In this document: positions 1-24,732 of the stretch, piece by piece | Numbering within the stretch: the stretch's first letter is position 1 | Layout: each line of letters starts with the position of its first letter | DNA from: a virus | Virus record (IMG/VR): IMGVR_UViG_3300024273_001733 | Span: 1-49,856 of that record | Strand: one strand, 5' to 3' | DNA: 49,856 nt | The notes under the pieces: generated by a model | What the model was told of the DNA's origin: nothing | The model's input: only the letters and a program-made list of their open reading frames with translations | The model's database searches: none | Program-made: the position numbers and the translations under genes

Positions 1-51
1 CGGGCCTTACCTCCCGGTGCTTACCAATAAATTGGGGCAATTATTACATTG

Positions 52-123
52 TAGCCCGTAGCGGAATCGAACCGCTCTTACATGGATGAAAACCATGCGT
101 CCTAACCGATAGACGAACGGGCC
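52..123 (-). tRNA. tRNA-Glu (TTC)
   Basis: A full cloverleaf can be drawn on the minus strand. The acceptor arms GGCCCGT and ACGGGCT pair (one G-U), the anticodon stem CATGG/CCATG holds the loop TTTTCAT with anticodon TTC, and the T arm is AGCGG-TTCGATT-CCGCT. The 3' CCA is not encoded. It lies downstream of the promoter at 169-201. Confidence 0.93.
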
Positions 124-168
124 ATTTCATTACCAAGATGTCAAATAACGTTTGTTTTAATTATAGTG

Positions 169-201
169 TAAATATAACTATAATATTTGAACCTTGAAAA
201 C
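169..201 (-). promoter_or_regulatory. Early/middle-type phage promoter (copy A)
   Basis: On the minus strand GTTTTC is followed, 25 bases from its G, by TATATTTA inside ATAGTTATATTTAC. The same two boxes with the same spacing recur at 2656-2688, 3319-3351, 5416-5448, 10505-10537 and 27560-27592. Upstream lies an A/T-rich stretch that is also conserved. It would drive tRNA-Glu. The -7-like box resembles the Bacteroidota TAnnTTTG element. Confidence 0.75.
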
Positions 202-238
202 TTTTTTACAATTATTTTCAAAAGTTATTAACAATTTG

Positions 239-311
239 AGCGGGAGACGGGGTTCGAACCCGTGACCTATAGCTTGGAAGGCTATCGCTCTACCAACTGA
301 GCTACTCCCGC
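239..311 (-). tRNA. tRNA-Gly (TCC)
   Basis: The acceptor arms GCGGGAG/CTCCCGC pair perfectly. The D arm is standard (AGCTCAGTTGGTAGAGC), the anticodon stem ATAGC/GCTAT carries the loop CTTCCAA with anticodon TCC, and the T arm CGGGG/CCCCG-type stem encloses TTCGAAC. The 3' CCA is not encoded. Confidence 0.95.
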
Positions 312-449
312 ATTTGGGTAGGTTCAGACGCGTTCTGCCTACCGAGACCATTAATTTGAAGGACTTCAGGGATTAATGACACTGTTTTAGAAAATAACAG
401 GATGGATTAATACGTGCTCTACCAACTTTCCCATACCTAGAATTATTAT
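312..449 (-). other. Non-coding segment with hairpin and duplicated tRNA-Pro 5' half
   Basis: No gene is seen here. Positions 315-342 form a strong hairpin on either strand (GGTAGG with CCTACC, inner CAGA with TCTG). Positions 420-441 repeat, base for base, 22 bases of the 5' (acceptor and D-arm) part of the tRNA-Pro gene at 1295-1316. The rest of a tRNA is missing: there is no TTCGA arm. The segment sits directly after the homing endonuclease stop codon, so it may be a remnant of a rearrangement or homing event, or part of a processed RNA. Confidence 0.5.
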
Positions 450-1094
450 TTACATTTTTCTACCTAATCTCCATCCTTCAGGTATTGTATCACCTTTATT
501 AATTTTCTTAGATTCAATTTCATTTGTTATCCAACACTTTCCATATTGTGAGTTATTAGATCCTTTTTGATACGAACGCCCTTTCATTTTTTCAATTGTT
601 TCAGGCTTGTGTTTTTTACCAGACCATTTACCCCATTGTACAGGTTTTCTTCTTCCTTCTTGAATTGCTTTATATAAAGATTTTGAAATAGCTTCACTAT
701 TTTTTTTAGCATATTCAGGATCTGTTTCTCTTAACAATTTTAGCTTCGATGTCCCATTCTTACCGCCTTTAGATAATTGCTCTTTTGATAAATGAGACCA
801 TCCTCCTTCACCACCTACTCTTAAATTCATACAGAGTTCTTCATTAATCAATTCAACATTAACAATTTCCCTTTCTCTATTCTTTAAATCATCTCTAGAT
901 TCTAAGAATTCTAATATTTCGCAAACATGATTGTCTTTACCATGCTTATTGATTGAATACCAAAGTCTTTTGCCTGAACCAACATAACCATCTTCTAGGT
1001 TATCTGTTGAATGCATTCCAATATAAAACTTGTTTGTAATAATACATGTAGTTTTATAAATGTAGTGATATTTTCTTCTTTGAGCTCTTTCCAT
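450..1094 (-). CDS. GIY-YIG homing endonuclease (Seg/I-Tev-like)
   Basis: A 214-residue site-specific DNA endonuclease of the kind that spreads its own gene between phage genomes. The GIY-YIG module is at the N-terminus, with YIY at residues 11-13, YIG at 24-26, the Tyr/Gly pair in GYVGSGK and its Arg near 43, and a downstream Glu-rich helix that should carry the catalytic Glu. The C-terminal half has NUMOD3-like DNA-binding segments (SGKKHKPETIEKM) and ends with a GSNNSQYGKCWITN segment common in phage GIY-YIG proteins. It lies inside the tRNA cluster, a typical homing location. The start codon is buried in a 13-bp hairpin that also holds a late promoter-like box (1088-1136), so expression is probably limited to late transcripts, as for T4 I-TevI. 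The family is certain; the target site cannot be read from this window. Confidence 0.92.
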   Translation of the reverse strand: MERAQRRKYHYIYKTTCIITNKFYIGMHSTDNLEDGYVGSGKRLWYSINKHGKDNHVCEILEFLESRDDLKNREREIVNVELINEELCMNLRVGGEGGWSHLSKEQLSKGGKNGTSKLKLLRETDPEYAKKNSEAISKSLYKAIQEGRRKPVQWGKWSGKKHKPETIEKMKGRSYQKGSNNSQYGKCWITNEIESKKINKGDTIPEGWRLGRKM

Positions 1095-1136
1095 GGATAT
1101 TTAGATATTTTTCTATAATCTATATATCCATGGAAA
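1088..1136 (-). promoter_or_regulatory. Start-codon-sequestering hairpin with embedded late promoter
   Basis: Positions 1088-1100 and 1124-1136 are perfect 13-base inverted repeats (TTTCCATGGATAT type) around a 23-base loop. The endonuclease ATG (1092-1094) lies in the arm transcribed second. The arm transcribed first includes GGATATATAG (1120-1129), a match to the late box GATATATAA seen elsewhere. Read-through RNA would form the hairpin and hide the ATG; RNA started at the late box would lack most of the first arm. Confidence 0.7.
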
Positions 1137-1154
1137 TGGCAAAAAGTTTCACAG

Positions 1155-1228
1155 AGCCTCTTGAGGGATTCGAACCCACGACCTGCCGATTACAAATCGG
1201 CTGCTCTGGCCAACTGAGCTAAAGAGGC
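1155..1228 (-). tRNA. tRNA-Thr (TGT)
   Basis: The acceptor arms GCCTCTT/AAGAGGC pair perfectly. The anticodon stem GCCGA/TCGGC holds the loop TTTGTAA with anticodon TGT, and a TTCGAAT T loop is present. CCA is not encoded. It is the first tRNA upstream of the homing endonuclease gene. Confidence 0.95.
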
Positions 1229-1242
1229 AAAAAGTTTCACAG

Positions 1243-1315
1243 TCTAAGTAGCAGGATTCGAACCTGCGGTCTCCACATCCCAAATGTGGCGGATTACCAA
1301 CTTTCCCATACCTAG
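1243..1315 (-). tRNA. tRNA-Pro (TGG)
   Basis: The acceptor arms CTAGGTA/TACTTAG pair with one G-U. The anticodon stem CCACA/TGTGG carries the loop TTTGGGA with anticodon TGG, and the T arm GCAGG-TTCGAAT-CCTGC is intact. Its 5' 22 bases are duplicated at 420-441. Confidence 0.93.
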
Positions 1316-1321
1316 ATATTG

Positions 1322-1394
1322 TTGTCCCACAAGGGCTCGAACCTCGACTCTTCTAGACCAAAACTAGACGTGTTGCCAATTACACCATAGGACA
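1322..1394 (-). tRNA. tRNA-Gln (TTG)
   Basis: The acceptor arms TGTCCTA/TGGGACA pair with one U-G. The anticodon stem TCTAG/CTAGA holds the loop TTTTGGT with anticodon TTG. The T arm CGAGG-TTCGAGC-CCTTG has one G-U. It is 6 bases from tRNA-Pro, so the two are surely cotranscribed. Confidence 0.93.
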
Positions 1395-1402
1395 ATATAT
1401 TG

Positions 1403-1475
1403 TGGAACAGGTTGGTATCGAGCCAACTCCTCTAGATTTTCAGTCTAGCGCAATAACCTTATCTGCCACTGCTCC
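1403..1475 (-). tRNA. tRNA-Phe (GAA)
   Basis: The acceptor arms GGAGCAG/CTGTTCC pair with one G-U. The anticodon stem CTAGA/TCTAG holds the loop CTGAAAA with anticodon GAA, and the T arm GTTGG-CTCGATA-CCAAC is intact. The first T-loop base is C rather than T. Confidence 0.9.
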
Positions 1476-1511
1476 ATTCATTACCAATACGTCAAAGAAC
1501 TTTATCTTTTG

Positions 1512-1582
1512 AGTTTAGTGTTGGAATCGAACCAACCTCCCAGGATTTGCAATCCTGTGCCTAACCAATCGGCCAACCAAAC
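1512..1582 (-). tRNA. tRNA-Cys (GCA)
   Basis: The acceptor arms GTTTGGT/ACTAAAC pair with one G-U. The anticodon stem CAGGA/TCCTG holds the loop TTGCAAA with anticodon GCA. The T arm GTTGG-TTCGATT-CCAAC is perfect. A terminator-like hairpin lies 10 bases upstream. Confidence 0.94.
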
Positions 1583-1591
1583 TTGTTAAAT

Positions 1592-1626
1592 CAAAAAAGG
1601 ACCAATCATTTCTGAAAGGTCCTTTT
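1592..1626 (-). terminator. Rho-independent terminator
   Basis: On the minus strand AAGGACC, a 14-base loop and GGTCCTT are followed by TTTT. It ends the unit that starts at the late promoter near 1832-1848 and holds the small gene at 1652-1780. The stem is flanked by A and T runs, so it could act in both directions. Confidence 0.7.
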
Positions 1627-1651
1627 GAATATTGTGTATGTTAATAATCGA

Positions 1652-1780
1652 CTAGCTCATATTAACATTTCTTTTTTCAAAAAGACCAAAACCCTGTTCC
1701 CCATTATAAAAGGGACATATAGTGCCCACCGTCCAATTAGTCGGTAGATTGCTTGTCATATGTTTCTGAGTTTTCAGCAT
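1652..1780 (-). CDS. Small hypothetical protein (42 aa)
   Basis: A 42-residue open frame from ATG (1778-1780) to TAG (1652-1654), not similar to anything I recognise. Its middle reads LPTNWTVGTICPFYNG and it ends FEKRNVNMS, a composition that looks like a folded small protein rather than random AT-rich translation. It sits between a tandem late-type promoter about 50 bases upstream (1832-1848) and a terminator downstream (1592-1626), so it forms a complete single-gene unit. The start is preceded by an A-rich stretch, as for other genes here. The same RNA can also form a 9-bp hairpin (TGTTAATA/TATTAACA, 1638-1669) over the end of the frame, so a non-coding role remains possible. Confidence 0.5.
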   Translation of the reverse strand: MLKTQKHMTSNLPTNWTVGTICPFYNGEQGFGLFEKRNVNMS

Positions 1781-1831
1781 TTTTATTAATTTTATTCTTA
1801 AAATACAAGATCTTTAATGTTCTTGTGTTAA

Positions 1832-1848
1832 TTATATATCTATATATC
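1832..1848 (-). promoter_or_regulatory. Tandem late-type promoter boxes
   Basis: On the minus strand GATATATA is followed directly by GATATATAAT: two overlapping copies of the late box. About 25 bases upstream a GTTTAAATTTG stretch and an A/T-rich block resemble a degenerate early/middle promoter, so this site may combine both classes. It precedes the 42-residue gene at 1652-1780. Confidence 0.55.
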
Positions 1849-1901
1849 TTTTTGTTTCAGCAAATTTAAACTTTTTGCAATTATTTTCAAAAAGATTTTT
1901 G

Positions 1902-1974
1902 TGATCCGAGCAGGATTCAAACCTGCGACCTATTCATTAGAAGTGAATTGCTCTATTCGCTGAGCTATCGGACC
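1902..1974 (-). tRNA. tRNA-Arg (TCT)
   Basis: The acceptor arms GGTCCGA/TCGGATC pair with one G-U. The anticodon stem ATTCA/TGAAT holds the loop CTTCTAA with anticodon TCT, and the T arm GCAGG-TTTGAAT-CCTGC is intact. AGA is a favoured Arg codon in AT-rich phage genes. Confidence 0.94.
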
Positions 1975-1994
1975 ATTTTTGTTTGTTACTATAT

Positions 1995-2345
1995 TTATAT
2001 CTGGCTATCTTGAATTGTTTCAAAATGTTTGATATGTTTACAATGTCCTCTTCTGAAACTACTTGCTGGACAATTACAATTCCATACTCCATTTCTAAAA
2101 GTAACATCATACGTTGTCTTTCCGTTCGATGATGGAATGGTATATTTAAGATCCTGCTGAGGCTCTTTAGTCACCTCAGAGGATGCCTTCACAGGGTCAA
2201 TAATTATATCATCTGAAAATTCTATGTCCTCTCTGGTTGTTCCATCAGGTACAGGGATCCAATCAGGACATACATATAGGCCATTAATTGTTTGTACCAG
2301 TGCAAAATCTCTAAAAACTCTATGTCTTGGTATTTTGATCTTCAT
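1995..2345 (-). CDS. Small SWIM zinc-finger protein
   Basis: A 116-residue protein ending with a SWIM-type zinc motif: YDVTFRNGVWNCNCPAS, then RRGHCKHIKHFE, giving the pattern C-x-C, spacer, C-x-H. SWIM domains are small zinc-binding modules used for DNA or protein binding. The first half is polar, with no recognised domain. I chose the ATG at 2343-2345 because it lies just after the stop of the upstream gene (2348), whereas the longer reading would start inside that gene. It is cotranscribed with 2348-2632 from the promoter at 2656-2688. Its partner and target are unknown. The neighbouring protein has a related Cys pattern with the His missing. Confidence 0.7.
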   Translation of the reverse strand: MKIKIPRHRVFRDFALVQTINGLYVCPDWIPVPDGTTREDIEFSDDIIIDPVKASSEVTKEPQQDLKYTIPSSNGKTTYDVTFRNGVWNCNCPASSFRRGHCKHIKHFETIQDSQI

Positions 2346-2347
2346 CT

Positions 2348-2632
2348 TTACCAAAAATACGTTGTTCTGCAACCAGTATTAAATTCTTCTATTGTTTCAA
2401 CTCCACATTGACAAGACATTGTCTCTGTATTAAATTGACAATTCTTTCTTCCTGATTTCTTTGTTTCGGCCCATACATGTCTTTCTGCGTCAATCGGCGA
2501 TGTTGTATATTCAGGATATACTGTAGATGCCAGACGTAAATTATAACGAGGTGCTTGCTTCTTTTTGCAAAGTAATCCAAATCCACGTAATCTTGAAAGT
2601 ATACTAGTTTTAATCTTTCTCTTATATGTCAT
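2348..2632 (-). CDS. Hypothetical protein, possible degenerate SWIM-like
   Basis: A 94-residue basic protein I do not recognise. It begins MTYKRKIKTSILSRLRGFG, suggesting a basic surface, and ends with a Cys-rich tail, MSCQCGVE then GCRTTYFW. The C-x-C, spacer, C-x-T pattern matches the SWIM motif of the next gene except that the final His is a Thr, so it may be a degraded paralogue. The early/middle promoter at 2656-2688 is 23 bases upstream of its ATG, and the next gene starts 2 bases after its stop, so the two form one early unit that continues into tRNA-Arg. Confidence 0.6.
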   Translation of the reverse strand: MTYKRKIKTSILSRLRGFGLLCKKKQAPRYNLRLASTVYPEYTTSPIDAERHVWAETKKSGRKNCQFNTETMSCQCGVETIEEFNTGCRTTYFW

Positions 2633-2655
2633 GTTGTTTGTTTTTTAATTATAGT

Positions 2656-2688
2656 TAAATATAACTATTTTATTTGAATTGAGAAAAC
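2656..2688 (-). promoter_or_regulatory. Early/middle-type phage promoter (copy B)
   Basis: On the minus strand GTTTTCTC and ATAGTTATATTTAAC have the same spacing as the other copies. The -7 box ends about 23 bases before the ATG of 2348-2632. It directly follows the degenerate tRNA at 2730-2803. Confidence 0.75.
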
Positions 2689-2729
2689 ATTTTAACACTT
2701 ATTTTTGAAAGTTATTAACAATTTTATTG

Positions 2730-2803
2730 TGGTCCATCCTGGGCTCGAACTTACGACCCCCTGATTAACAGTCAGGTGCTCTAACTGTTAGATGATAGCA
2801 GCA
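2730..2803 (-). pseudogene. Degenerate tRNA-Asn-like gene (GTT)
   Basis: The anticodon arm CCTGA-CTGTTAA-TCAGG is intact with anticodon GTT, and a TTCGAGC T loop and an ATGGACC 3' acceptor strand are present. The 5' acceptor strand (TGCTGCTATC region) does not pair with ATGGACC beyond about five bases, and the T stem halves (GTAAG and CCAGG) do not pair. It looks like a chimera of two tRNAs or a decaying copy. Confidence 0.55.
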
Positions 2804-3132
2804 TTTTTATTATTTGAAATTGAAATTGTAGGGTATTTCCTATTACCATGTTTAACATTTTCCACAAATAGGGAATATAGTAAAAACATCTTTACAATAA
2901 ACATATCATCATGCATTATGATATAAATTATAGGCTATTAAATAATAATAAAAATAAGTTCGGCCTTTTATGTCAGTCGCACGACTTGTTAATACCCTCA
3001 TTCTCCAATTCTGTTCCCCAACTATATTGAATCTTTATCAATACTAAAGACTCTCAAGGTTTGGTAGCATTTATTGTTTATATTATTGTTTATCTTGAGC
3101 TACAATTCCAATATTTCAAATAACTTTAATTG
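2804..3132. other. Non-coding stretch
   Basis: I see no supportable gene in these roughly 330 bases; every frame is closed within a few codons. A short perfect dyad, AGTCG-CA-CGACT, lies near 2977-2988, and a block around 3000-3060 is less AT-rich than its surroundings. It may be a processed spacer between two tRNA-like genes or hold an unrecognised small RNA. Confidence 0.4.
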
Positions 3133-3207
3133 TATTTTGTATCGGAGTCGAACCGATCATCTTCGGGCAAAAGCCACGCGTTCATCGCCATATAAACTAC
3201 ACAAAAT
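3133..3207 (-). tRNA. tRNA-like gene, possibly tRNA-Lys (TTT)
   Basis: The acceptor arms ATTTTGT/ACAAAAT pair perfectly and the T arm ATCGG-TTCGACT-CCGAT is perfect. The anticodon arm is weak: only about three pairs close the loop CTTTTGC, which would read TTT (Lys) with an unusual G at position 37. The D stem has about three pairs (GTT/AAC). It is downstream of the promoter at 3319-3351. The identity is uncertain and it may be decaying. Confidence 0.55.
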
Positions 3208-5481: not shown

Positions 5482-6111
5482 TTATAGATTCTTTGGATTG
5501 TTAGTGTCGATCGTGCCTGCAACCGGTACGCTATTATCAAAATGCATTAGTGTGAAAAACGTGTCTTGGTCCATGAATGGAACATCTTCTACCTTTTTCA
5601 TAACACACCATAAAGTATTACCAAGATCCCATAAATGGTCATCAAGCTCTAATATTACATAGCCATAATTTTCAAACGCATTAAAGAACTCTCTGTTTGT
5701 AAAATACCTGCCATGTCCTGGCCAGCTTCCAACCTCAGGCAGTTCATGTATCATAATACCTCCAACTTCTAGCCAGGAGTTTAAGTTCATCCATGCATTA
5801 AATTGACCTTCCTCGAATTCAACATGCTCGGTAGTACCTATGTTTGTAATTACATTACATTTGAATAGTGTTGGATCGTATATTGACAAATCAGTTACTA
5901 CGATGTCATCACCCTTTAAATCTAAAGTATGGTACTCCTTAAAATAGTTTTGTAGTATATTTTTAATTCTATACTTTTCAATGTATTGGCCGTTTATAAG
6001 ATCATTAAATGCATTTTGGTCTCCAAGTTCAAGTAGAACTGACACCTTAGGGTCCACATAATTATTAGTGGCTAGCATTACCTTTCGTAGTGTTCTTGTT
6101 ATAAATCCCAT
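5482..6111 (-). CDS. SAM-dependent methyltransferase-like protein
   Basis: A 209-residue protein with a Rossmann methyltransferase pattern. LDLKGDDIVVTDLSIYD resembles strands 1-2 with the acidic residue that binds the SAM ribose, CNVITNIGTTEHVE resembles motif IV, and WLEVGGIMIHELPE resembles the post-motif strand common in class I methyltransferases. The N-terminal SVLLELGDQNAF is a weak version of the glycine-rich loop, with only one Gly, so SAM binding is not assured. It is the last gene of the early repair/nucleotide operon that starts at 10505. The substrate, whether DNA, sugar or protein, cannot be told. Confidence 0.6.
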   Translation of the reverse strand: MGFITRTLRKVMLATNNYVDPKVSVLLELGDQNAFNDLINGQYIEKYRIKNILQNYFKEYHTLDLKGDDIVVTDLSIYDPTLFKCNVITNIGTTEHVEFEEGQFNAWMNLNSWLEVGGIMIHELPEVGSWPGHGRYFTNREFFNAFENYGYVILELDDHLWDLGNTLWCVMKKVEDVPFMDQDTFFTLMHFDNSVPVAGTIDTNNPKNL

Positions 6112-6117
6112 ATATTA

Positions 6118-6642
6118 TTAAAAATTATTAACGTCCTCCAATAGTGCTATCATTGTTGAAACCTCTACAGGCTTAAAATCCCACAAATCACATGCACAAT
6201 TAAGTACCTTGGTTTTGTGGTTTGTTTTGTAATCTTTACTGGGATATCCGATAATAGAATAGGATCCTTTTGATTTTCCTGGCCATTCCATTAAGGGCCA
6301 ATACGATAGGACTGAATTGACCCCTGGATGTTCCTCTATTGCATTATATAAATAATCAATTGATACAATACTTTTTATCTCAGCAACATCACGGGCAGCC
6401 TTGTCATACTCTCCGCTTATAATTACAATGTCTCCATTTAGATTTCTTGCAACTACTTCCAATGTTTCAGGATCCCATGCAAAGTTTCCAAGCACATATA
6501 CAATGTCCTCCTCGGAAACTACAGAATTCCATGCTTCCACCAATTGGTGGTTCATGTCATCTACATCTACAAATGGTCTTTTATAATTTCTTATAGCTCC
6601 TTTTCTCCCAAACTGCTGGTTTGATGTTACAAATACTTTCAT
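6118..6642 (-). CDS. Catalytically dead calcineurin-like phosphoesterase homologue
   Basis: A 174-residue protein with the layout of small phage and bacterial metallophosphoesterases: MKVFVTSNQQFGR, then RPFVDVDDMNHQLVEAWN, then DIVYVLGNFAW, then GDIVIISGEYDKAARD. In active members these read SDxHFGH, GDF and GNHD. Here the metal ligands are replaced: D to N and H to Q in the first block, D to N in the second, N-H to E-Y in the third, and no clear GHxH block remains. The fold should be kept but metal catalysis should be lost. It sits between a PD-(D/E)XK nuclease and the methyltransferase-like gene, with gaps of 0 and 6 bases. It may have become a binding or inhibitor protein. Confidence 0.7.
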   Translation of the reverse strand: MKVFVTSNQQFGRKGAIRNYKRPFVDVDDMNHQLVEAWNSVVSEEDIVYVLGNFAWDPETLEVVARNLNGDIVIISGEYDKAARDVAEIKSIVSIDYLYNAIEEHPGVNSVLSYWPLMEWPGKSKGSYSIIGYPSKDYKTNHKTKVLNCACDLWDFKPVEVSTMIALLEDVNNF

Positions 6643-7179
6643 TTATACAATTGCAAATTTTACGTTAAAGTTATCCCATAGATTTTCTAGGAATCGTTGT
6701 TCGTTTACAGCAGTAGAACCATTTAAGATTTTACCATCAGGCGATGTGTCAATAAACATATACATCACAAAGTCATATGCTGTTGAATAAATAATCGATT
6801 GTCCAAATCCTTCACGAAGTCCAGATCCTCTATCACCTTTTTTAAATTCAATCGCAATCGTAACTCCTTCGCTCTCAACAGTCATATCGGGTCTGTTTGC
6901 AGTTCCCATGAATTGAATGTTCTTTACTGTAGTTTTTACGTTACCTTCCCATTTAATCATTGTTCTCGCCTTTTCCTTTGCGAGCCCTCTACTAAAGCCT
7001 CTTTTTTCAACAATGTATTCGGTTAATTGGTCAAGAAGGTGAGGATAGATAAATTGCTTTATCTTATCCTCACTCTGAGACTTGTAATCAATTGTTTCAA
7101 AAACATCGCGAGTAGTGATTCCATCTTGAATCGCTTCTAGTAGATCTAATCTTTTTTTAGATTTACTTGCTAGTTTCAT
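6643..7179 (-). CDS. PD-(D/E)XK nuclease-like protein
   Basis: A 178-residue protein with a restriction-endonuclease-like core: NRPDMTVESEGVTIAIEFKKGDRG supplies the D...E-x-K triad (Asp in RPDM, Glu-Phe-Lys in IEFKK), and GFGQSIIYSTAYDFVMYMFID fits the following Q-x3-Y helix and strand. The N-terminal 60 residues are helical and basic, including DQLTEYIVEKRGFSRGLAKEKA. Family members cut DNA or serve in repair and restriction; this one could degrade host DNA or process branched DNA. Its stop is directly followed by the start of the dead phosphoesterase gene. The fold assignment is fairly sure, the function open. Confidence 0.72.
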   Translation of the reverse strand: MKLASKSKKRLDLLEAIQDGITTRDVFETIDYKSQSEDKIKQFIYPHLLDQLTEYIVEKRGFSRGLAKEKARTMIKWEGNVKTTVKNIQFMGTANRPDMTVESEGVTIAIEFKKGDRGSGLREGFGQSIIYSTAYDFVMYMFIDTSPDGKILNGSTAVNEQRFLENLWDNFNVKFAIV

Positions 7180-7192
7180 AAGTATGTGTGTT

Positions 7193-7705
7193 TTATGCTT
7201 GTTCTACTTCAACAGTAGGTTTTGATGCTTTTTCGATTTCAAGATCCAATTCAGCAAGAGCAACATGTTTTCCCTGAATTGTTTTGTTATCATCCGCAAC
7301 TTGGTTTAATGCATTGGTGATTTGTGCACCTACATTTGTCAATAATCTTGTGAATCTGCGAGCTGCTTCAATTCCAGTTCCATTAATGCTAGTTAAAACA
7401 GTGTACAATGTATTTAATTGCATGTTGTTTAATACCACATCAGTACTTTTCTCTTTAGAGTTTGCATTGATTCTTTTCTGATCGTTTAAAGTATCATAAA
7501 GATTAATTAAGAATGCAGCATTTTTGATGTTCCACCCATAACTCTTGTCAATTTGAGCAAGAATTGCAGTTAAATTACTTGCATTTTCTAATGCAACAGT
7601 GTACTCTCTTGTTGCCAATTCAGTTTGTAAGTCATTTACTTCAACCTCTAATTGGGCGCGCAAGTCTTTTAATTCGCTAATTGATTTTGTTTTTGTTTTT
7701 TCCAT
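7193..7705 (-). CDS. Coiled-coil hypothetical protein
   Basis: A 170-residue protein I cannot place. Residues 5-40 (ISELKDLRAQLEVEVNDLQTE) and about 140-162 (HVALAELDLEIEKASK) form heptad-like coiled coils that flank a central helical domain with an NxxxLNTLYTVLTSIN segment. There are no Cys clusters, membrane segments or enzymatic motifs. It lies in the early operon between the guanylate kinase and PD-(D/E)XK nuclease genes, with spacings of 18 and 13 bases. Confidence 0.6.
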   Translation of the reverse strand: MEKTKTKSISELKDLRAQLEVEVNDLQTELATREYTVALENASNLTAILAQIDKSYGWNIKNAAFLINLYDTLNDQKRINANSKEKSTDVVLNNMQLNTLYTVLTSINGTGIEAARRFTRLLTNVGAQITNALNQVADDNKTIQGKHVALAELDLEIEKASKPTVEVEQA

Positions 7706-7723
7706 TTCAGTTTTTATTTATTA

Positions 7724-8203
7724 TTAAAATTTTTCATTATTTATTATACAATCATAGTTAGAAAAGTTTCCAAATTGTTCATTATCTGCCTGAATTCTTC
7801 GTTCGATTGTGTCATCTTTATCGTTACGTTGATATAATCTTGACCTTCTGGTTTCCTCAGGAATGTCTAGGTAGATTATAAATAATCTGTCACGGTATAC
7901 ATCATCCAATAAATTTACTGCCCCAGCGTTTAGTATCATTACATCACATCGTTCAAATTCATTTACGGTTAATCCATATCGCCAATCATTGAATGCTTGC
8001 CACTCTACAAATTTACCAGTGTCAATGTTATGTTGAAATTCCTCTTGAGTTAGGAAGTAATAATCTTCACCATCAACCTCTCCGGGTCGAGGTGGTCTTG
8101 TAGTACATGAGACTCCATATTTAAAGCCTCTGTTCATAAATCTTTTTCTTAAATAATCCTTTCCGGATGTTGCAGCACCTACTAATGCGATTTTGCCTGT
8201 CAT
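7724..8203 (-). CDS. gmk: Guanylate kinase-like nucleotide kinase
   Basis: A 159-residue (d)GMP kinase-like enzyme, phosphorylating GMP or dGMP with ATP for phage nucleotide supply. The P-loop GAATSGKD is at residues 9-16, and the GMP-binding block SCTTRPPRPGEVDGEDYYFLTQEEF follows near 32-57, nearly identical in pattern to cellular guanylate kinases. The lid region has RSRLYQRNDKDDTIERR. It is about 40 residues shorter than E. coli Gmk. The usual Ser/Thr after the P-loop Lys is Asp, which is odd and may affect Mg-ATP binding. T4 uses an unrelated dNMP kinase (gp1), so this may be a functional substitute. The neighbour downstream on the map is a sugar epimerase gene. Confidence 0.85.
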   Translation of the reverse strand: MTGKIALVGAATSGKDYLRKRFMNRGFKYGVSCTTRPPRPGEVDGEDYYFLTQEEFQHNIDTGKFVEWQAFNDWRYGLTVNEFERCDVMILNAGAVNLLDDVYRDRLFIIYLDIPEETRRSRLYQRNDKDDTIERRIQADNEQFGNFSNYDCIINNEKF

Positions 8204-16929: not shown

Positions 16930-19239
16930 TTAACCTAGGTTACCTGATTGGATTTCTCCTGTGTTTAAGATTGTAGTTCTATGAACAACGATTTCTAAAC
17001 CTTTAACAGGTTCAACATAAGTATCGATGATTCCGATATTGTTGTCAATAACTTCATTCGTATTATTAGTACTATCCATAATGTTTCTAAACTCATAAAC
17101 ACCTCCGTCTTGTTTAATACTTTCCATGAAAGAATCTGCAAGAGTTTTAATCTCTAATCTTGTTTGTACATTGTTAAATTCAAATACATAATCTTTAAGA
17201 ATATTTGCCATACCATCTTGGATATAAATAAGTGCTTCTCTAACATGTGCTGAAGAAAGCGCTGATTTAATAGATTGTTGTGCAGTTTTGTTTCCTAAGA
17301 TAGTTAAACCTACACCTCTCTGGAATACGATAGGGTTGATTCCAAATGGCTCTAGGTAATCTCTATCATTTTTGTCAAATGAATATTCAACTCCCTTTGT
17401 GTTAGTCCCTGCAACAACACCACGTCTTGGACCAGCAACGATTGACCAAGGTAAAGCGTTAGTGTATTTGTCCATGTAGTTGTTAGATACATATGCAGCA
17501 GGTGGAACGATAATATCTTTACCGTTATCTGATACAATTAAACCTGGACCATAGTAGAATGCATAGTTAGCTCCTTGTGTGATGCTAGGCAATGTATATA
17601 CTTTAGTTGGGTTTTTATCTTGGTTACCACCTGTTGTTACATAAAGCGATTGGAATGTTCCATTCTCATCAGTAAATGAAGGATCCGTAGATTTTTTGAA
17701 ATCTTCGATTGTTGGTGCATTTATGATAGCAGACGCATTTTGTCTGTCTTTTGCTAATTGAGAAAGATTTGATTTAGTGTTGATTCCGTTTACGTCAAAT
17801 GAAGTAAATGTATCTACAACATATCTAAAGTCGATAATGTCTTTGTCAATTAAAGCGTCATACAACCCGATACCTCCAGTAAGAACAGATAGATATTGGC
17901 TAATTGTTTTTTGAGTAATAACTGCTTTTGCTAAAACAAACGGCTTGTAATAATCCGATGCGTTTTCGAAAGACTTAATAATTCTATCACTATATAAAGG
18001 CTCAACGTCTGTATACACTGTGAATAATGCATCAGCACCTGCATTTATTAATTCTTTAGAAATTCTATTAACTCTTGCAAGTCTGCCAGATCCCGAAGCA
18101 CCGTCAACATAATCTCCAATAGTAATCGGGAATATTTCAGGTGATGGATATATCGAACCAGTGAATGTTACTGTAAAGCTTGTATTACCTGGAGTAGCCT
18201 GGGTTACAGTACCTACAATTGTCTGTACTGTGAAATCATACGCAGTTTCTCTTGGGCTAGTAACATTATTGGCAACATGTGAAAGTAGTTCATAATCTTC
18301 AGTGTTAATAACAGAGTGTCCTACGAAATCAACCTTAGTTCCAGTTTCATCTATTACTAAATCCTCGTCAACTGCACAGAATAAACCTGTTCTTCTTGCT
18401 TCAGCGTTAATCGTTGACTCAATATATAGGTTTCTACCTTCAAGATCTTTAAATCCTGGTAAAATAGAACCTGTATATTGTGCAATTAAACTAACTTGTC
18501 TTAAATTAGCAAATTCGTTTAATTTAGATTTGATTAATCCTTCAGCTGTAAAGAATTCAGAGTAGATTGGATCGTTTAGCATAATAGCAGGATCAAATTC
18601 TCCTTTAAATACAAATACATCTAACATAAAGTCAGACATCTTGTCAAAGTCATTTAAGTATTCTGGAACATTTCCTGCACCATACCATTCTCTTGCTGTT
18701 AAATCAAATTCTTTAACAGAAGCAGCTTGTCTTACTATAATTGTAATCGAATCTTGTTTAATGTTTACGAAATTTAATAGGTTATTGTCACCGTTTGCGA
18801 TTGTAGCTAGTGTAGCCGTATCTGAGGGTGTCATAAACTTATCGTTATCGAAGAATTTATCGTAATCCTTTGAACCGTCTACTGATGCATTAGCATCGAC
18901 AGTACCATTTGTTGAAAGTGATTGATAATTTGCAAGATCGTTGTCGGCTACAAATTTACCTAAGTTTAATGCTAAGATAGGACCTCTTGTAAGAGCTTCA
19001 ATACATGATCTGTGGAAAAACATTCCCTTTTTTTCTAATCCTTTGTCAATTGAACCAAAAACATTGTTAAATGTTTCTTGTGAATCAATTAAAACTGGTG
19101 TGTTGTAAGGTCCTTTTCTAGAGTGACCTACAACTAATCTAAGAGTCTCTACGTTAATATTCGCAGTTTGAGATTTGTCAAACTCAAGTCTATAAACTCC
19201 TGAGCTCTTAAAATTTAATAATTGAGGACTTAATGCCAT
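16930..19239 (-). CDS. 18: Contractile tail sheath protein (T4 gp18)
   Basis: A 769-residue sheath subunit. The start, SPQLLNFKSSGVYRLEFDKS, and LVVGHSRKGPYNTPVLIDSQ are typical of T4-like sheaths (virion insertion of the N-terminal strand, then the GxS.KGP segment). The C-terminal domain has YYGPGLIVSDNG, DRDYLEPFGINPIVFQRGVGLTILGNKTAQ and a helical ending that contains the tail-tube contact. It contracts to drive the tube through the host envelope. It is longer than T4 gp18 (659), with extra material in the middle (about residues 320-420) that is probably a surface domain. A strong late box is upstream. Confidence 0.93.
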   Translation of the reverse strand: MALSPQLLNFKSSGVYRLEFDKSQTANINVETLRLVVGHSRKGPYNTPVLIDSQETFNNVFGSIDKGLEKKGMFFHRSCIEALTRGPILALNLGKFVADNDLANYQSLSTNGTVDANASVDGSKDYDKFFDNDKFMTPSDTATLATIANGDNNLLNFVNIKQDSITIIVRQAASVKEFDLTAREWYGAGNVPEYLNDFDKMSDFMLDVFVFKGEFDPAIMLNDPIYSEFFTAEGLIKSKLNEFANLRQVSLIAQYTGSILPGFKDLEGRNLYIESTINAEARRTGLFCAVDEDLVIDETGTKVDFVGHSVINTEDYELLSHVANNVTSPRETAYDFTVQTIVGTVTQATPGNTSFTVTFTGSIYPSPEIFPITIGDYVDGASGSGRLARVNRISKELINAGADALFTVYTDVEPLYSDRIIKSFENASDYYKPFVLAKAVITQKTISQYLSVLTGGIGLYDALIDKDIIDFRYVVDTFTSFDVNGINTKSNLSQLAKDRQNASAIINAPTIEDFKKSTDPSFTDENGTFQSLYVTTGGNQDKNPTKVYTLPSITQGANYAFYYGPGLIVSDNGKDIIVPPAAYVSNNYMDKYTNALPWSIVAGPRRGVVAGTNTKGVEYSFDKNDRDYLEPFGINPIVFQRGVGLTILGNKTAQQSIKSALSSAHVREALIYIQDGMANILKDYVFEFNNVQTRLEIKTLADSFMESIKQDGGVYEFRNIMDSTNNTNEVIDNNIGIIDTYVEPVKGLEIVVHRTTILNTGEIQSGNLG

Positions 19240-19293: not shown

Positions 19294-21177
19294 TTACAAT
19301 AAATCATAGATGTCGAATTGAAGATCTCCCTCCGTATCGTTAAATTTGTAAAGTATTTTTTCCATTAATTTATGTTTCTCTGGCTCAATTACATCTAACA
19401 ACTCTTCCACATAATCTGCATAATCACTGGTTCCAAAGAACTCAGTTGCAGTTACACAGGTCATCATTGTATCATCATTTCCCATCTGCGCACCATAACT
19501 TCCATTTTTTAAAGTTCCAAATAAACTTGCCTCTTGGACTGTTATCACATCGTTAACTTTAATTCTATTTGTTTCTATTAATTTTTTAAAGTTTTGACAA
19601 AACACAGACTTATTATCTGATTTTAATCTTATTCCCGGCTTAAGAACCCTTGAATCATGTCTATGTTTAAATCTAAGTACCATCTCATCTTCAAAATCAT
19701 TACGCCCTGGAAACACAGTACTTAAGTATTGTAACAATATACTTCCGTATGTATTGTACTCTATAATCATCTTAACGTTCTCAGAATTGAATATATTGAT
19801 AGCTAGTGTGTAAAGTACCTTGGCAAAATCCTCGATTGGATGTTCGTTACTTCTAAACACTGCAACCTGATTTAATTTAAAGAAATCATACATCGCACTC
19901 GGACTTATTGAATTTTCAATGTCAATGTCTTCCATTGCATCTACTTCAAAAACATTAATTACTGAATAGTCACCTCCATTTCCCTCTGCAATATCCACTG
20001 AAAATAAATAGTACTTGTCTGAATTAGCTGCGCCTTCAACGTCAAAATCAGGGTCAAAGCCTAAAAATCCTTCGGTTGCAATATGTATATTTTCAAACTC
20101 TTCTAAATCATAGAATTCAAATTTCTTGGCATTCTTTCTGATATTTTTCATGGTACCTGGACTTAACAACAAACTTGATGAGCTTGTAAACTCATTTCCA
20201 TATTGTCTATTAAATGCATCTTCAGATCCCAAGTTTCCAAGCTCTCTTTGATACCATGCATCATCTCGATCAGGGTGCTGCCACCAGTCAATTCTGGTTG
20301 GCGTATATTCGTTATTTCCCTTTTCAGCATCTGAATAAATTTCATAGAACTTATTAAATCCATTTGGTGTAGAAGTAATATTGATTCTTGAGATTTTTGA
20401 TGCAGAAAGTGTAGGATAAACGTTTTCATAAAATGAATCCACAATAGTAGGGTGAACGTGAGCAAACTCATCTAAGTATAAATTATGAATTGTAAAACCA
20501 ATACCTGATTTTGCAGTCGTTGATTGTCCTACTAAACGACATCCATTATCTGCACGAACATTCATTACATCATACTTAATAATTCCTGGCTTCATGAAAA
20601 ACGGAAGGTGTTCAATTACAACCTTTGCCTTGTCAATAATTTCCTTGGTTGATTCTGCCTTATTCGCAAGCAGCAGGGTGGTTTTATCATAGTTAAATGT
20701 CAAGTACCATGCATTAAAAATAGAGGCTGTTACTGTATTATGTGAAAGGAATCCATTTGTATAATATCTGTGATCTGGGTGATCTACTGTTGCGTCATAC
20801 ATTTTAACCTTAGGGATAAACGTTTTTATTTCAACAATCCATTCTACTCCAGAATTAGTCATAACACCATGGTTAATCTTTAAATCCTTTACATAAACTT
20901 CATTAAGATATTCGTCAAATATGATATGTGTATCTGCACATTTTAAAGTTCTTCCAGTATTTGTTTTAACTTCCCATATTGTAAATGGTTTAGTTAGGTG
21001 AATACTTGACATTGGCCTATAACCAGTATCAGTCAATACTGAATATCCTTCTAATTTTAATGTATCTTGGATTTTGTCAGTTAAGTCATCTTGTGGAAGA
21101 TATTGAGTTGCTCTTGCCTCATATGTTTCTATTAACCCTATTAATGATACTATTGTCCATTTAATTATTGACTTCAT
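19294..21177 (-). CDS. 17: Large terminase, C-terminal part, preceded by split-intein C-fragment
   Basis: A 627-residue ORF. Residues 1-147 are the C-terminal fragment of a split intein: LKCADTHIIFDE matches block B (T-x-x-H) and VDHPDHRYYTNGFLSHN matches blocks F and G, ending in His-Asn. Thr148 is the first extein residue. Residues 148-627 are the terminase ATPase and nuclease: TVTASIFNAWYLTF completes the Walker A region, YLDEFAHV is the Walker B/coupling segment, and SVDIAEGNGGDYSVI holds nuclease Asp residues. Spliced to the 128 extein residues from 21521-22075 it gives 608 residues; T4 gp17 has 610. It packages DNA through the portal. The first 40 residues, including SIIKWTIVSLIGLIETY, are unusual for an intein. 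Confidence 0.92.
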   Translation of the reverse strand: MKSIIKWTIVSLIGLIETYEARATQYLPQDDLTDKIQDTLKLEGYSVLTDTGYRPMSSIHLTKPFTIWEVKTNTGRTLKCADTHIIFDEYLNEVYVKDLKINHGVMTNSGVEWIVEIKTFIPKVKMYDATVDHPDHRYYTNGFLSHNTVTASIFNAWYLTFNYDKTTLLLANKAESTKEIIDKAKVVIEHLPFFMKPGIIKYDVMNVRADNGCRLVGQSTTAKSGIGFTIHNLYLDEFAHVHPTIVDSFYENVYPTLSASKISRINITSTPNGFNKFYEIYSDAEKGNNEYTPTRIDWWQHPDRDDAWYQRELGNLGSEDAFNRQYGNEFTSSSSLLLSPGTMKNIRKNAKKFEFYDLEEFENIHIATEGFLGFDPDFDVEGAANSDKYYLFSVDIAEGNGGDYSVINVFEVDAMEDIDIENSISPSAMYDFFKLNQVAVFRSNEHPIEDFAKVLYTLAINIFNSENVKMIIEYNTYGSILLQYLSTVFPGRNDFEDEMVLRFKHRHDSRVLKPGIRLKSDNKSVFCQNFKKLIETNRIKVNDVITVQEASLFGTLKNGSYGAQMGNDDTMMTCVTATEFFGTSDYADYVEELLDVIEPEKHKLMEKILYKFNDTEGDLQFDIYDLL

Positions 21178-21184
21178 ATATTAT

Positions 21185-21382
21185 TTATTCTTTTAAGAAT
21201 TGAATGTATTTTTGGATGGTTTCTTCGTGATTAGTGTGGTATTCAGATTCCCATATTGTAAGAACTTCATATCCATGTGACTCTATCATATTATTTTTTA
21301 AAGCATCTGACTTCCATTTTTCACCCGCAGTTTCCTGAATTGATTTATTAAAATCATTCTTATTGTATTTATTTGGATTCAT
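21185..21382 (-). CDS. Vsr/EDxHD-like homing endonuclease fragment inside the fractured terminase
   Basis: From ATG the frame gives 65 residues ending GYEVLTIWESEYHTNHEETI, matching the C-terminal part of Vsr-like homing endonucleases. The frame stays open upstream to 21520, with YDFVLGKKIIEFNGDYWHMN just before and across the ATG, which is the catalytic core. No ATG, GTG or TTG was found in this upstream extension. It is in the same frame as the intein N-fragment and separated from it only by the TAA at 21521-21523. So it may be a decayed endonuclease, a protein with a non-standard start, or a read-through product. Free-standing genes of this family between split-intein halves have been described in metagenomic phages ('fractured genes'). 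Confidence 0.65.
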   Translation of the reverse strand: MNPNKYNKNDFNKSIQETAGEKWKSDALKNNMIESHGYEVLTIWESEYHTNHEETIQKYIQFLKE

Positions 21383-21520
21383 ATGCCAATAGTCTCCGTT
21401 AAATTCTATAATTTTTTTACCTAAAACAAAGTCATACGCAAATGTTCTTCCAATTTCTTTAAAATGCCTAAAGAATTGATTACCATTTACTGTCGAATAA
21501 TGTATAAAGTTGTTAACATT

Positions 21521-22075
21521 TTAAAAAGCGTCAACCCATGAATAGAGTTTCCATAGCTTCCACTTAAACCATTCAGTCATCTTTAAGGGCCTTCTTTCCC
21601 TAAGTATGGTGTAAAACAGTTCACCTATAGTTATTGTCTTGGTGTTTCCCTGAGGGTCCTTTATGTCAATCCTAGTATCATGAAAATGACACTTTCCCAT
21701 TTGCCTCGATGCGAGCACGATATTAAATCTATTGTTTTGAAAATCTCTAAGTAATTGCTTTTGATATTCTCTAAGTACAACCCTTTGAATACCGTTATCG
21801 GTCATTACCACTGCATACTTTTCTGCAAAGTAAACAATGTCATTTGCACATTTTGCTATTTCAGAAATTTCAGCATCAGTATATTCAAATACAATATTTC
21901 CTCTTCTTAGAAATTGCTTACCCTCATAAAATGGCATACTTACTTGTGGTCTATAACCTTTATCAAGGGCTACCATTAAATCATTTATGGATTTTGTAGA
22001 CCATACTAATTTCTGGGCCTCTTTATCAGAATCCCCTGAGGGAATCCATTTATTATCAAAGTTTGTATCTGCCAT
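21521..22075 (-). CDS. 17: Large terminase, N-terminal part, fused to split-intein N-fragment
   Basis: A 184-residue ORF. Residues 1-128 are the terminase N-terminus, ending NIVLASRQMGK, i.e. the Walker A loop up to its Lys. Residue 129 is Cys, the first residue of an intein: CHFHDTRIDIKDPQGNTKTI, followed by a helical tail (PLKMTEWFKWKLWKLYSW), 56 residues in all before the stop. This break point, between intein blocks A and B, is far earlier than in common split inteins and is like the AceL-TerL intein, which interrupts the same gene. The remaining intein and terminase are encoded at 19294-21177. Splicing in trans would restore GK-T of Walker A; without it the ATPase is dead. Confidence 0.92.
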   Translation of the reverse strand: MADTNFDNKWIPSGDSDKEAQKLVWSTKSINDLMVALDKGYRPQVSMPFYEGKQFLRRGNIVFEYTDAEISEIAKCANDIVYFAEKYAVVMTDNGIQRVVLREYQKQLLRDFQNNRFNIVLASRQMGKCHFHDTRIDIKDPQGNTKTITIGELFYTILRERRPLKMTEWFKWKLWKLYSWVDAF

Positions 22076-22076
22076 A

Positions 22077-22724
22077 TTATTCTGTTATTTCAACGTCTTC
22101 GACATCATGTTCTGCATTATCAATTCCTTCTCTAATCATTCTCATTAGGTCTTTCGTTCCTCTTTGTGTATTTCCGGAACCTGAATCTCCACCTGAAATT
22201 TCTATTTCTCTAACATCATCTCTTTTCTTATAAATCTCAATGTCTCTTGCGATTCTCTTGGCACTTTCCTCAGTTGCCATTAAGTACATTGTTTGGGATT
22301 TAATAATATCAAGCATTGATTTCTGTAAGGTTGCAAGAACTTCAAACATTCTTGGTGCAACTTCACCATCTTCAATTGCCTCTAATAGGGTTGTTAGTGC
22401 TCGCTCTCCTGCCTGTAATTGATAAACTAATGAACTCATTGTCATTTCGTCCATCTTCTTTTTTGCCTGGATATATTCGTCCCTTTCAATAATATCTTCA
22501 TCAAGATAAAATTTCATTAGGGCCGAAATAGTTTTCTTTGCCTTTTTAGTTGAACTTTCTTTAAGTTCGCCAAACGACATTATCCTTTCTGGTCTTTTTG
22601 CTGGAAGTTGTGGGTCTGTATCAATTACATCGGAAATCTCCTTTGAACTATCGTCACCAATTAATTCATCAAGGTCTCTTCGTATATCCTCCGCCTGCTC
22701 TTTTATGCTTTTCTTTTCTGACAT
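22077..22724 (-). CDS. 16: Small terminase subunit candidate (T4 gp16)
   Basis: A 215-residue, highly helical acidic protein ending 1 base before the large-terminase N-part. It has the T4 gp16 type of layout: a charged N-terminus, a long central coiled region (ERALTTLLEAIEDGEVAPRM, then FEVLATLQKSMLDIIKSQTMYL) and a Gly/Ser linker (SGGDSGSGNT) before a short tail. Small terminases form rings that regulate gp17 and choose DNA. The assignment rests on position and architecture; I see no sequence motif that proves it. T4 gp16 is 164 residues. A weak late-like box, GATAAATAAT, is at 22747-22756. Confidence 0.7.
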   Translation of the reverse strand: MSEKKSIKEQAEDIRRDLDELIGDDSSKEISDVIDTDPQLPAKRPERIMSFGELKESSTKKAKKTISALMKFYLDEDIIERDEYIQAKKKMDEMTMSSLVYQLQAGERALTTLLEAIEDGEVAPRMFEVLATLQKSMLDIIKSQTMYLMATEESAKRIARDIEIYKKRDDVREIEISGGDSGSGNTQRGTKDLMRMIREGIDNAEHDVEDVEITE

Positions 22725-22770: not shown

Positions 22771-24732
22771 TTACCTTGCGTTGGCATATTTTTGGAAGCC
22801 TAACGATGGAATAGCATTATCGATTACGATAGCTAATTGATTGTCTCTAACAACATATTGGTTTAATACATTTGAATGTTGTTCATATTCTATTGGAGTA
22901 TTAAACACTCTAATGTTTGTCATAAACATGTCATTTGCTCTTAACGAATAGTTAGTTGTAGAATCCCATGCAATATTAAGTGGCATTAATCTATTTTCAC
23001 TAAACTCCTGTATCAAATTATTTGAGGACATTTGTGGTAGTACATTAGAACCACCTACTTGTGTGATTACATTACTATTTGGATCTAAGCTATAAATATT
23101 AACCTCTAGTTGTAAGAATTCATTGTTAACATTTACAACATATGCATACCATTTATCTTTGCTCAATGTGATTCCATGTGTAAATACTTCCTCCATACCA
23201 TTGACAGTAAGTTTAAATTCTGTATTGCTTAACGTTAATTTAAATCCTGTGATTGCATCATTATCTCCAAATAGATAATAATCATCTACTGAAGTTGCCG
23301 CAAACTGTGGAGAGAACCATGCAGTATATGCTACATTTTTACCGGGCTCTACTTTAGAAGGAGCAACATAAAACAGTGCAATATCGTTTAATTGCATTGT
23401 TGTAAAGTCATAGTAATTTTTACTAACAACAGTCCATCTATTCTTTAAATCGTAATCTTTGATACGTATGCTCTTATTAACAAACTCTCTGATTCCATCT
23501 CTGTATGTTGATACAACTGACTGGAATACTTCTGGCTTGATATTTTTAGTGTACTCTTCTTGAATTTGTTCTCCAAATATTTCTTCAATTCCAGTAACTA
23601 ACACATCTGTTGCTGCATCAAATTGTCCCTTGATAACATCGCTTCTGTCTTGGTATTTAACCAATTTAACTCTCCAGTATGAATGTGCCTTATTAAACTC
23701 ATCTGCTAATGAAACCGAACTAATCTCATACATTCTATTAATGATTGGAATAAACATATAGTCCTTGTTTCTTGGAATTTTTCCAAGTCCAAAGTGAGAT
23801 TCGAATTCTGTGGCTGTTATATGTACTTCAAAATCTGCAAGCTCAATACCAAATATATCATATGTATTTGCCTCAGTTGGAAATTCATTGTCTGGCACTA
23901 AAATCTTAACAGTTTGATTATCCACAACATTGTGTAATGAATACTCCATTAAAATTACATCACTTGTTCTTAAATCTGGCTCTGTTCTAAAGTAATTAAC
24001 CTCATGCCCAAATATACCTGTGATAATATTGGAAAGTTGCTTGTATACCCCTACTGATTTCGTAAGAGCATATGGGTTAAATGTGTTCTCATTACATGAA
24101 ACTTGAATATTTGCGCAACCATTCATTGCAAATGGATCGGTGCATTCCGTACAATAATTAGGACAGGATTCTATGATTCCATCCACTGTTTCGATAGTAT
24201 ATGTAATTGAAAGTAGTGAAAGACTATTTCCAGGGATTAATGCAACTACTTCTGCCTTTACGTCTAACCAAACTGGCTTTGTTGTATCAAATGTGATTGC
24301 CATTAAATCTCCATATGTAGATCCATTGTTTAATGGATTAAATTGAGAATAAACTCCATTTGTTTGAGACCATCTATATTCATATTCAAATGAATTTCCA
24401 GCAGATAGAACTCCATAATATTGTGCTGAATTTAAACTTACAGGTAGCGTTTCCACTATTGTAATTTCATTCGCTGAAAGTATTGAATCAATTGTGTATG
24501 TAATATTCCCTATAATTATAGAGTCTCCTTCATTAAACGATTGCGTGAATTGAGTATCTAGCCCATCTATTTCGTTGCTGCCTGCGACTCCATTAACAGT
24601 ACCTGTCATTTGAGGTGTTTTAAGACCAACAATAATTTCCCAATCAATTATCCTAAGAGTATTTGTATAAGGTTCCTGTAGTGACGCTATTAGGTAATCA
24701 CCATATTCGTTAGCAGTATATCCTGTTACCAT
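22771..24732 (-). CDS. Large virion structural protein, LamG-like C-terminus
   Basis: A 653-residue protein I cannot name. It is beta-rich and polar. Residues 190-225 have a Cys cluster (ESCPNYCTECTDPFAMNGCAN). The C-terminal third (about 450-640: FYVAPSKVEPGKNVAYTAWF, DKWYAYVVNVNNEFLQLEVN, then MTNIRVFNTPIEY) has the strand pattern of LamG/concanavalin-type domains, which bind glycans. It lies between the small terminase and a small membrane protein gene (2 bases apart). A neck or tail-connector role, or a surface-decorating protein, is possible. Counterparts at this position in T4 (gp13, gp14) are shorter and I see no homology. Confidence 0.65.
   Translation of the reverse strand: MVTGYTANEYGDYLIASLQEPYTNTLRIIDWEIIVGLKTPQMTGTVNGVAGSNEIDGLDTQFTQSFNEGDSIIIGNITYTIDSILSANEITIVETLPVSLNSAQYYGVLSAGNSFEYEYRWSQTNGVYSQFNPLNNGSTYGDLMAITFDTTKPVWLDVKAEVVALIPGNSLSLLSITYTIETVDGIIESCPNYCTECTDPFAMNGCANIQVSCNENTFNPYALTKSVGVYKQLSNIITGIFGHEVNYFRTEPDLRTSDVILMEYSLHNVVDNQTVKILVPDNEFPTEANTYDIFGIELADFEVHITATEFESHFGLGKIPRNKDYMFIPIINRMYEISSVSLADEFNKAHSYWRVKLVKYQDRSDVIKGQFDAATDVLVTGIEEIFGEQIQEEYTKNIKPEVFQSVVSTYRDGIREFVNKSIRIKDYDLKNRWTVVSKNYYDFTTMQLNDIALFYVAPSKVEPGKNVAYTAWFSPQFAATSVDDYYLFGDNDAITGFKLTLSNTEFKLTVNGMEEVFTHGITLSKDKWYAYVVNVNNEFLQLEVNIYSLDPNSNVITQVGGSNVLPQMSSNNLIQEFSENRLMPLNIAWDSTTNYSLRANDMFMTNIRVFNTPIEYEQHSNVLNQYVVRDNQLAIVIDNAIPSLGFQKYANAR

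Follow-up and report, generated by a model that had tools for sequence, protein, structure and literature searches.

The large terminase subunit (TerL) is encoded in two pieces in a 49.9-kb virus sequence (IMG/VR record IMGVR_UViG_3300024273_001733, positions 1 to 49,856), hereafter the window, by which we mean the whole stretch of DNA analysed. An N-gene and a C-gene follow one another, and their inner ends resemble the two parts of an intein that interrupts TerL between the Lys and Thr of the Walker A motif (GK|T; Table 1). Re-deriving the boundaries gave the same result as the original prediction: the N-part ends in ASRQMGK, followed by Cys, 55 further residues, and a stop, and the C-part opens with 147 residues ending in SHN, followed by TVTASIF. 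Joining the two host-protein segments (exteins) gives 608 amino acids (aa), the length previously proposed, and the intact orthologue in locus L007 is likewise made of 128 + 480 aa. The C-extein carries the Walker B and nuclease motifs (LYLDEFA, SVDIAEG, IEYNTYG, and GNDDTMM), and the ATPase domain, the nuclease motifs, and the single copy of the gene are those of a T4-type large terminase. An intact terminase elsewhere, which the original prediction had named as an observation that would speak against it, was not found in the window contig, where PF03237 matches once. Two contigs from metagenome 3300024273 (L002 and L003) are identical to the window across both genes and have the same break, and the arrangement recurs with different sequences in two more divergent lineages (L004/L005/L110 and L006/L109). 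The break is thus real and no product of the assembly.

Table 1. Features of the split terL locus and its neighbours; all lie on the minus strand of the 49.9-kb window (E, expect value; ORF, open reading frame).
Feature	Coordinates	Strand	Basis
N-gene, 184 aa = 128 aa TerL + 56 aa N-intein, then stop	21521-22075	minus	ORF
C-gene, 627 aa = 147 aa C-intein + 480 aa TerL	19294-21177	minus	ORF
TerL N-extein, 128 aa, ends ASRQMGK (FNIVLASRQMGK), Walker A up to Lys	21692..22075	minus	phrog_5989 terminase, E 2e-23
N-intein, 56 aa, Cys1 + block A	21524..21691	minus	TAA stop at 21521-21523
Helical tail of N-intein, RRPLKMTEWFKWKLWKLYSWVDAF, kept across clade	21524..21595	minus	clade alignment; helix 32-43 in model of contiguous homologue
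Endonuclease remnant, Vsr-like (EDxHD-type), 111 codons, start-less	21188..21520	minus	in frame after N-gene stop
C-intein, 147 aa, blocks B, F, G, ends FLSHN	20737..21177	minus	TIGR01443 intein C-terminus above cut-off; intein fold
Head helix of C-intein, residues 2-23, kept across clade	21109..21174	minus	alignment and model
TerL C-extein, 480 aa, from Walker A Thr (TVTASIF)	19297..20736	minus	PF03237, E 1e-12; stop at 19294-19296
Probable small terminase subunit, adjoins N-gene	22077..22724	minus	phrog_735, E 0.0019, weak
Tail sheath gene, downstream of C-gene	16930..19239	minus	phrog_34521, E 7e-133

The residues expected of class 1 splicing are present and conserved in the clade: Cys1, ADTH in block B, the SHN end, and Thr at position +1. 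Cys1 occurs in 17 of 17 aligned N-inteins, the +1 Thr in 38 of 38 loci, and the C-inteins end in Asn, with one exception that has Gln. The last two residues vary in places: the inteins of L091 (phage LR756500) and L142 end in Ser-Gln, not His-Asn, and those of the LR756501-like L139–L145 in Leu-Asn. As had been claimed, the N-part has block A alone, the C-part has blocks B, F, and G, and the break is early. The two separate genes and the break after the first helix are those of a natural split intein with an atypical, N-terminal break (position S2). The N-intein of 56 aa (47–70 aa in the clade) falls outside the 15–37 aa so far reported for S2-type split inteins (PMC13014065). Pfam barely detects the intein (PF14890, E 0.035), so that alignments and folds were required; alignments that mixed N- and C-halves with contiguous mini-inteins misplaced the N-part and were excluded from the model. 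The modelled window C-half forms one long helix (residues 2–23) followed by an intein core (predicted local distance difference test score, pLDDT, 87). Its best match in the PDB is VidaL (E 6.5e-8), 51 matches have E ≤ 0.001, and the matches listed are inteins or related splicing domains.

Between the two genes lies an endonuclease sequence that the original prediction had overlooked. Past the TAA of the N-gene the same frame remains open, and this stretch corresponds to the C-terminal nuclease half of an endonuclease (positions 252–349 of 353 in the phrog_22677 profile, E 1e-18). It also matches REase_MTES_1575 and DUF559, which are restriction-endonuclease-like families, and Vsr weakly. The stretch contains YDFVLGKKIIEFNGDYWH, no start codon occurs upstream of the catalytic motif, and the first ATG yields 65 aa only. 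Relatives have complete endonuclease genes of 325–401 aa at the same place; set beside these, the start-less half indicates that the window endonuclease is broken and, to judge from its sequence, the homing endonuclease, which would once have spread the intein, is present in the window as a decaying remnant. L006 retains about 34 codons of the endonuclease, in another frame. Readthrough of the N-gene's TAA into the remnant was considered and rejected, as the frame is not conserved in L006.

Among 156 related viral loci, 144 have an uninterrupted Walker A GK-T/S, 10 (in three lineages) carry the intein, and two are truncated. The empty site of L007, the closest of the related loci, lies exactly at GK|T; this locus lacks just the intein and the remnant, and the flanks are 85–87% identical on both sides. 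The insertion is in frame and matches an exact empty site in related loci, as expected of an intein, and together with the ORFs and the splice blocks this bears out the claim that TerL is fractured at the Walker A GK-T by a split intein. The extein tree places the window with the intein-free L007 (Shimodaira–Hasegawa-like approximate likelihood ratio test, SH-aLRT, 95), and the intein tree places it with L109 (99/97), which is the same contig as L006. Identity between the window and L006 is 86% and 79% in the intein halves and 73–74% in the exteins. The conflict between the two trees points to horizontal arrival of the element, and most likely the intein passed from one phage to another whose terminase was already divergent, with the window endonuclease decaying later.

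Both intein halves are under purifying selection. Comparing the window with L006, both of which are without an intact endonuclease, the ratio of nonsynonymous to synonymous substitution rates (dN/dS) is 0.12 for the N-intein, 0.18 for the C-intein, 0.24 for the tail helix, and 0.20 for the head helix (the two helices thus below 1), and 0.04–0.09 for the exteins, where purifying selection is strong; as the divergence of this pair may partly predate endonuclease loss, the ratios speak for long-term function of the intein and do not date the loss.

A family scan (C-intein alignment search) recovered 39 IMG/VR loci that differ in layout at this one site. Most are split with an endonuclease-size ORF between the halves, and a motif identifies this ORF as an endonuclease in some of them. 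In the split L117 the N-gene stop and the C-gene start are 18 bp apart, and in L118, L120, and L123, also split, 77 bp separate the genes. L134 is contiguous (782-aa ORF, 5515–7860) and a near twin of the split L132 and L133; its intein sits among split ones in the intein tree, which may reflect re-fusion after endonuclease loss or a surviving ancestral form. For L139–L141 and L143–L145 the N-gene was not found in the upstream DNA fetched. The 462-kb phage LR756500 has the split form with endonuclease. In LR756501 (735 kb), 12,374 bp of DNA with ORFs on either strand separate the N-gene from the C-gene, and three of its relatives have gaps of 9,018, 11,169, and 12,316 bp, the N-gene of the 11,169-bp case being represented by its last 35 aa alone, at the contig end. 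These far-apart contigs form one clade (100/100). Only a reaction at the protein level would plausibly join genes that are separated by 9–12.4 kb of DNA coding on both strands. No intact TerL was found in LR756501, and related records of up to 217.7 kb have no second TerL ATPase match, the sole match being the split one. Truncated TerL-like ORFs with the Walker A Lys replaced occur in LR756500 just downstream of terL (L091, 6838–7653, 272 aa, SRQMGIS) and in LR756501 (L106, 699857–701038, 394 aa, SRQMGIT).

The long tail of the N-fragment and the roughly 40 extra residues at the start of the C-fragment had been noted as unusual; they are no peculiarity of this phage, being conserved throughout the clade and contiguous in L134. 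The 17 aligned N-inteins have the common tail RxLTxxEKIKxKLY, and the C-inteins have the common head MxKKxLxxIIxxLIELIEKxEYRN. In L134 tail and head belong to one chain, and at their junction L133 carries an additional stretch of about 1.1 kb that includes the endonuclease. In the model of the L134 intein, residues 32–43 and 47–64 are helical with a short loop between them, and the split forms break at this loop. L229 and L230, from gut metagenome-assembled genome (MAG) contigs, also appear contiguous and have comparable helices. Since the contiguous forms have the helices joined, the helical hairpin probably existed before the break. The two modelled helices likely act as docking arms. The apparently contiguous TerL intein of L229 (MAG contig ONIZ01000001) has Ser at position 1 instead of Cys. 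In another clade, the TerL inteins of L085 and L086/L087 are split at the same GK|T site without helical arms, and L086 has a GIY-YIG-like ORF plus a Vsr-like endonuclease between the halves.

It is very probable, from the sequence evidence, that a mobile intein, in which the gene of a Vsr-like homing endonuclease was nested, fractured terL at GK|T and that the halves trans-splice to TerL. Two polypeptides would be made, the C-gene presumably having a translation start of its own, and the halves would bind one another, perhaps first through the N-tail and C-head helices. They would then complete one Hedgehog/intein (HINT) domain, of which the C-half is predicted and the N-half is modelled with low confidence. 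Class 1 splicing through Cys1, Asn147, and the +1 Thr would join GK to T and free the intein, as suggested by the conserved residues and by the active VidaL and AceL-TerL. The released 608-aa TerL would work as a T4-type motor, as is known for the family. With the Walker A Thr as the +1 nucleophile, neither unspliced fragment has a complete Walker A motif, and the motor should therefore be off before splicing. Several observations weigh against trans-splicing as the explanation. Block B has Ala in place of Thr, although active VidaL has Ala too; the N-half is modelled at low confidence even in the contiguous homologue L134 (pLDDT about 49–70); the window helices are no more amphipathic than shuffled sequences (p = 0.14 and 0.20); and the window is a 49.9-kb fragment, so that a second terL could lie outside it. 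A further idea, which we consider rather unlikely, is that the split was retained since it is useful, the helical arms and the two genes making assembly of the motor conditional and keeping the ATPase off until trans-splicing. Such conditional assembly would explain why the split has outlasted both the endonuclease in several lineages and the move of the genes to positions 9–12 kb from one another.

A gene in pieces need not be spliced at all if the TerL fragments assemble non-covalently, leaving the intein parts as relics. PMC10448857 cites such a case in phage NrdA, which an endonuclease interrupts and which functions in two pieces without splicing. Here, however, selection maintains the splicing residues and both halves of the intein, the cut falls between the Walker A Lys and Thr so that 203 intein residues would stay unless removed, and cultured Ackermannviridae carry contiguous inteins at the same site, which makes non-covalent assembly very unlikely. 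Joining at the RNA level, with a group I or II intron, bypass, or readthrough fusing the genes at the mRNA, has a precedent in the group I introns that split terL in Jug phages (PMC12363816), and in the window a single TAA separates the N-gene from the endonuclease remnant that continues its frame. Against it, the inner end of each gene consists of intein sequence under selection, and in relatives the fragments are 9–12 kb apart with genes on both strands. A search for group I and II introns at the junction gave no family match at gathering or relaxed threshold, and we hold fusion at the mRNA to be highly improbable.

That terL is broken or dispensable, with another terminase packaging the DNA, would be compatible with the fragmentary window and with the truncated TerL paralogues in LR756500 and LR756501. 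It is nevertheless exceedingly doubtful given the low extein dN/dS (0.04–0.09), the intact Walker B and nuclease motifs, and the far larger relatives in which no second intact terL was found. The probability of an assembly or sequencing artefact, in favour of which we found no point, is close to negligible, as the arrangement is repeated in independent contigs and divergent lineages.

Dassa et al. (2009) reportedly described 'fractured genes', in which split inteins surround a new family of Vsr-like endonucleases. The relatives of the window resemble these genes: the halves of a split intein stand on either side of a free-standing Vsr/EDxHD-like endonuclease gene, which is complete in the relatives and a remnant in the window. 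The differences are that the window and several relatives have a broken endonuclease or none and that one clade has the halves 9–12 kb apart. AceL-TerL and GOS-TerL are atypical split inteins in TerL that, according to PMC13014065 and PMC11766414, have N-inteins of 25 and 37 aa and, in the former source, a break after the first intein helix, at position S2. The parallel to AceL-TerL drawn by the original prediction holds for the host gene and the early split, and the likeness of the window to AceL/GOS-TerL extends to a class 1 Cys1 (AceL) and a fold match. It fails at the insertion site, as Cat (the engineered AceL/GOS consensus, PDB 6dsl) has Cys-Glu from +1 and the window has the Walker A Thr. 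The N-inteins of the window clade are also longer, at 47–70 aa, and the CatC match, starting at profile position 34, does not include the helical head. By sequence and by fold alike, the C-half matches VidaL (PDB 6vgv) best, and VidaL has Ala in block B as well, but its split follows strand 2 and its N-intein has 16 aa (PMC13014065), and the helical head again falls outside the matched stretch. The contiguous TerL inteins of Ackermannviridae (for example, of Salmonella phage Maynard and Vibrio phage Kuja) occupy the same GK|T site and have a homologous splicing domain, yet they are single polypeptides of 159–179 aa without helical hairpin or split. Judged on the open-access literature, the insertion site, the N-intein length, the presence of helical arms, and the layouts in which the endonuclease is lost or the genes lie far apart set this intein apart from AceL/GOS-TerL.

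Tenacibaculum phage PTm1 (AP019524.1, 168695–171501; L234) encodes its DNA polymerase in two genes, with an annotated split intein and a VSR endonuclease between them. The host gene of the intein differs from that in the window, and PTm1 is a Bacteroidota jumbo phage with a related tail sheath. By analogy, the likeness to PTm1 suggests that the host of the window phage belongs to the Bacteroidota.

The loci form a natural series at one site, which is empty, contiguous, split around a complete endonuclease, split around a dying one, split with none, or represented by genes 9–12 kb apart, and on which the origin and fate of split inteins can be tested. Where the genes lie far apart and no intact terL was found, the phages would depend on protein trans-splicing for DNA packaging. 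If the helical arms are true docking drivers, they would offer a ready-made module for split-intein engineering.

Elsewhere in the window, nine tRNA genes lie on the minus strand at 51–3207, and positions 22771–24732 encode a protein of 653 aa, one stretch of which resembles a head-closure protein (phrog_679, E 1e-4) and another a tail fibre.
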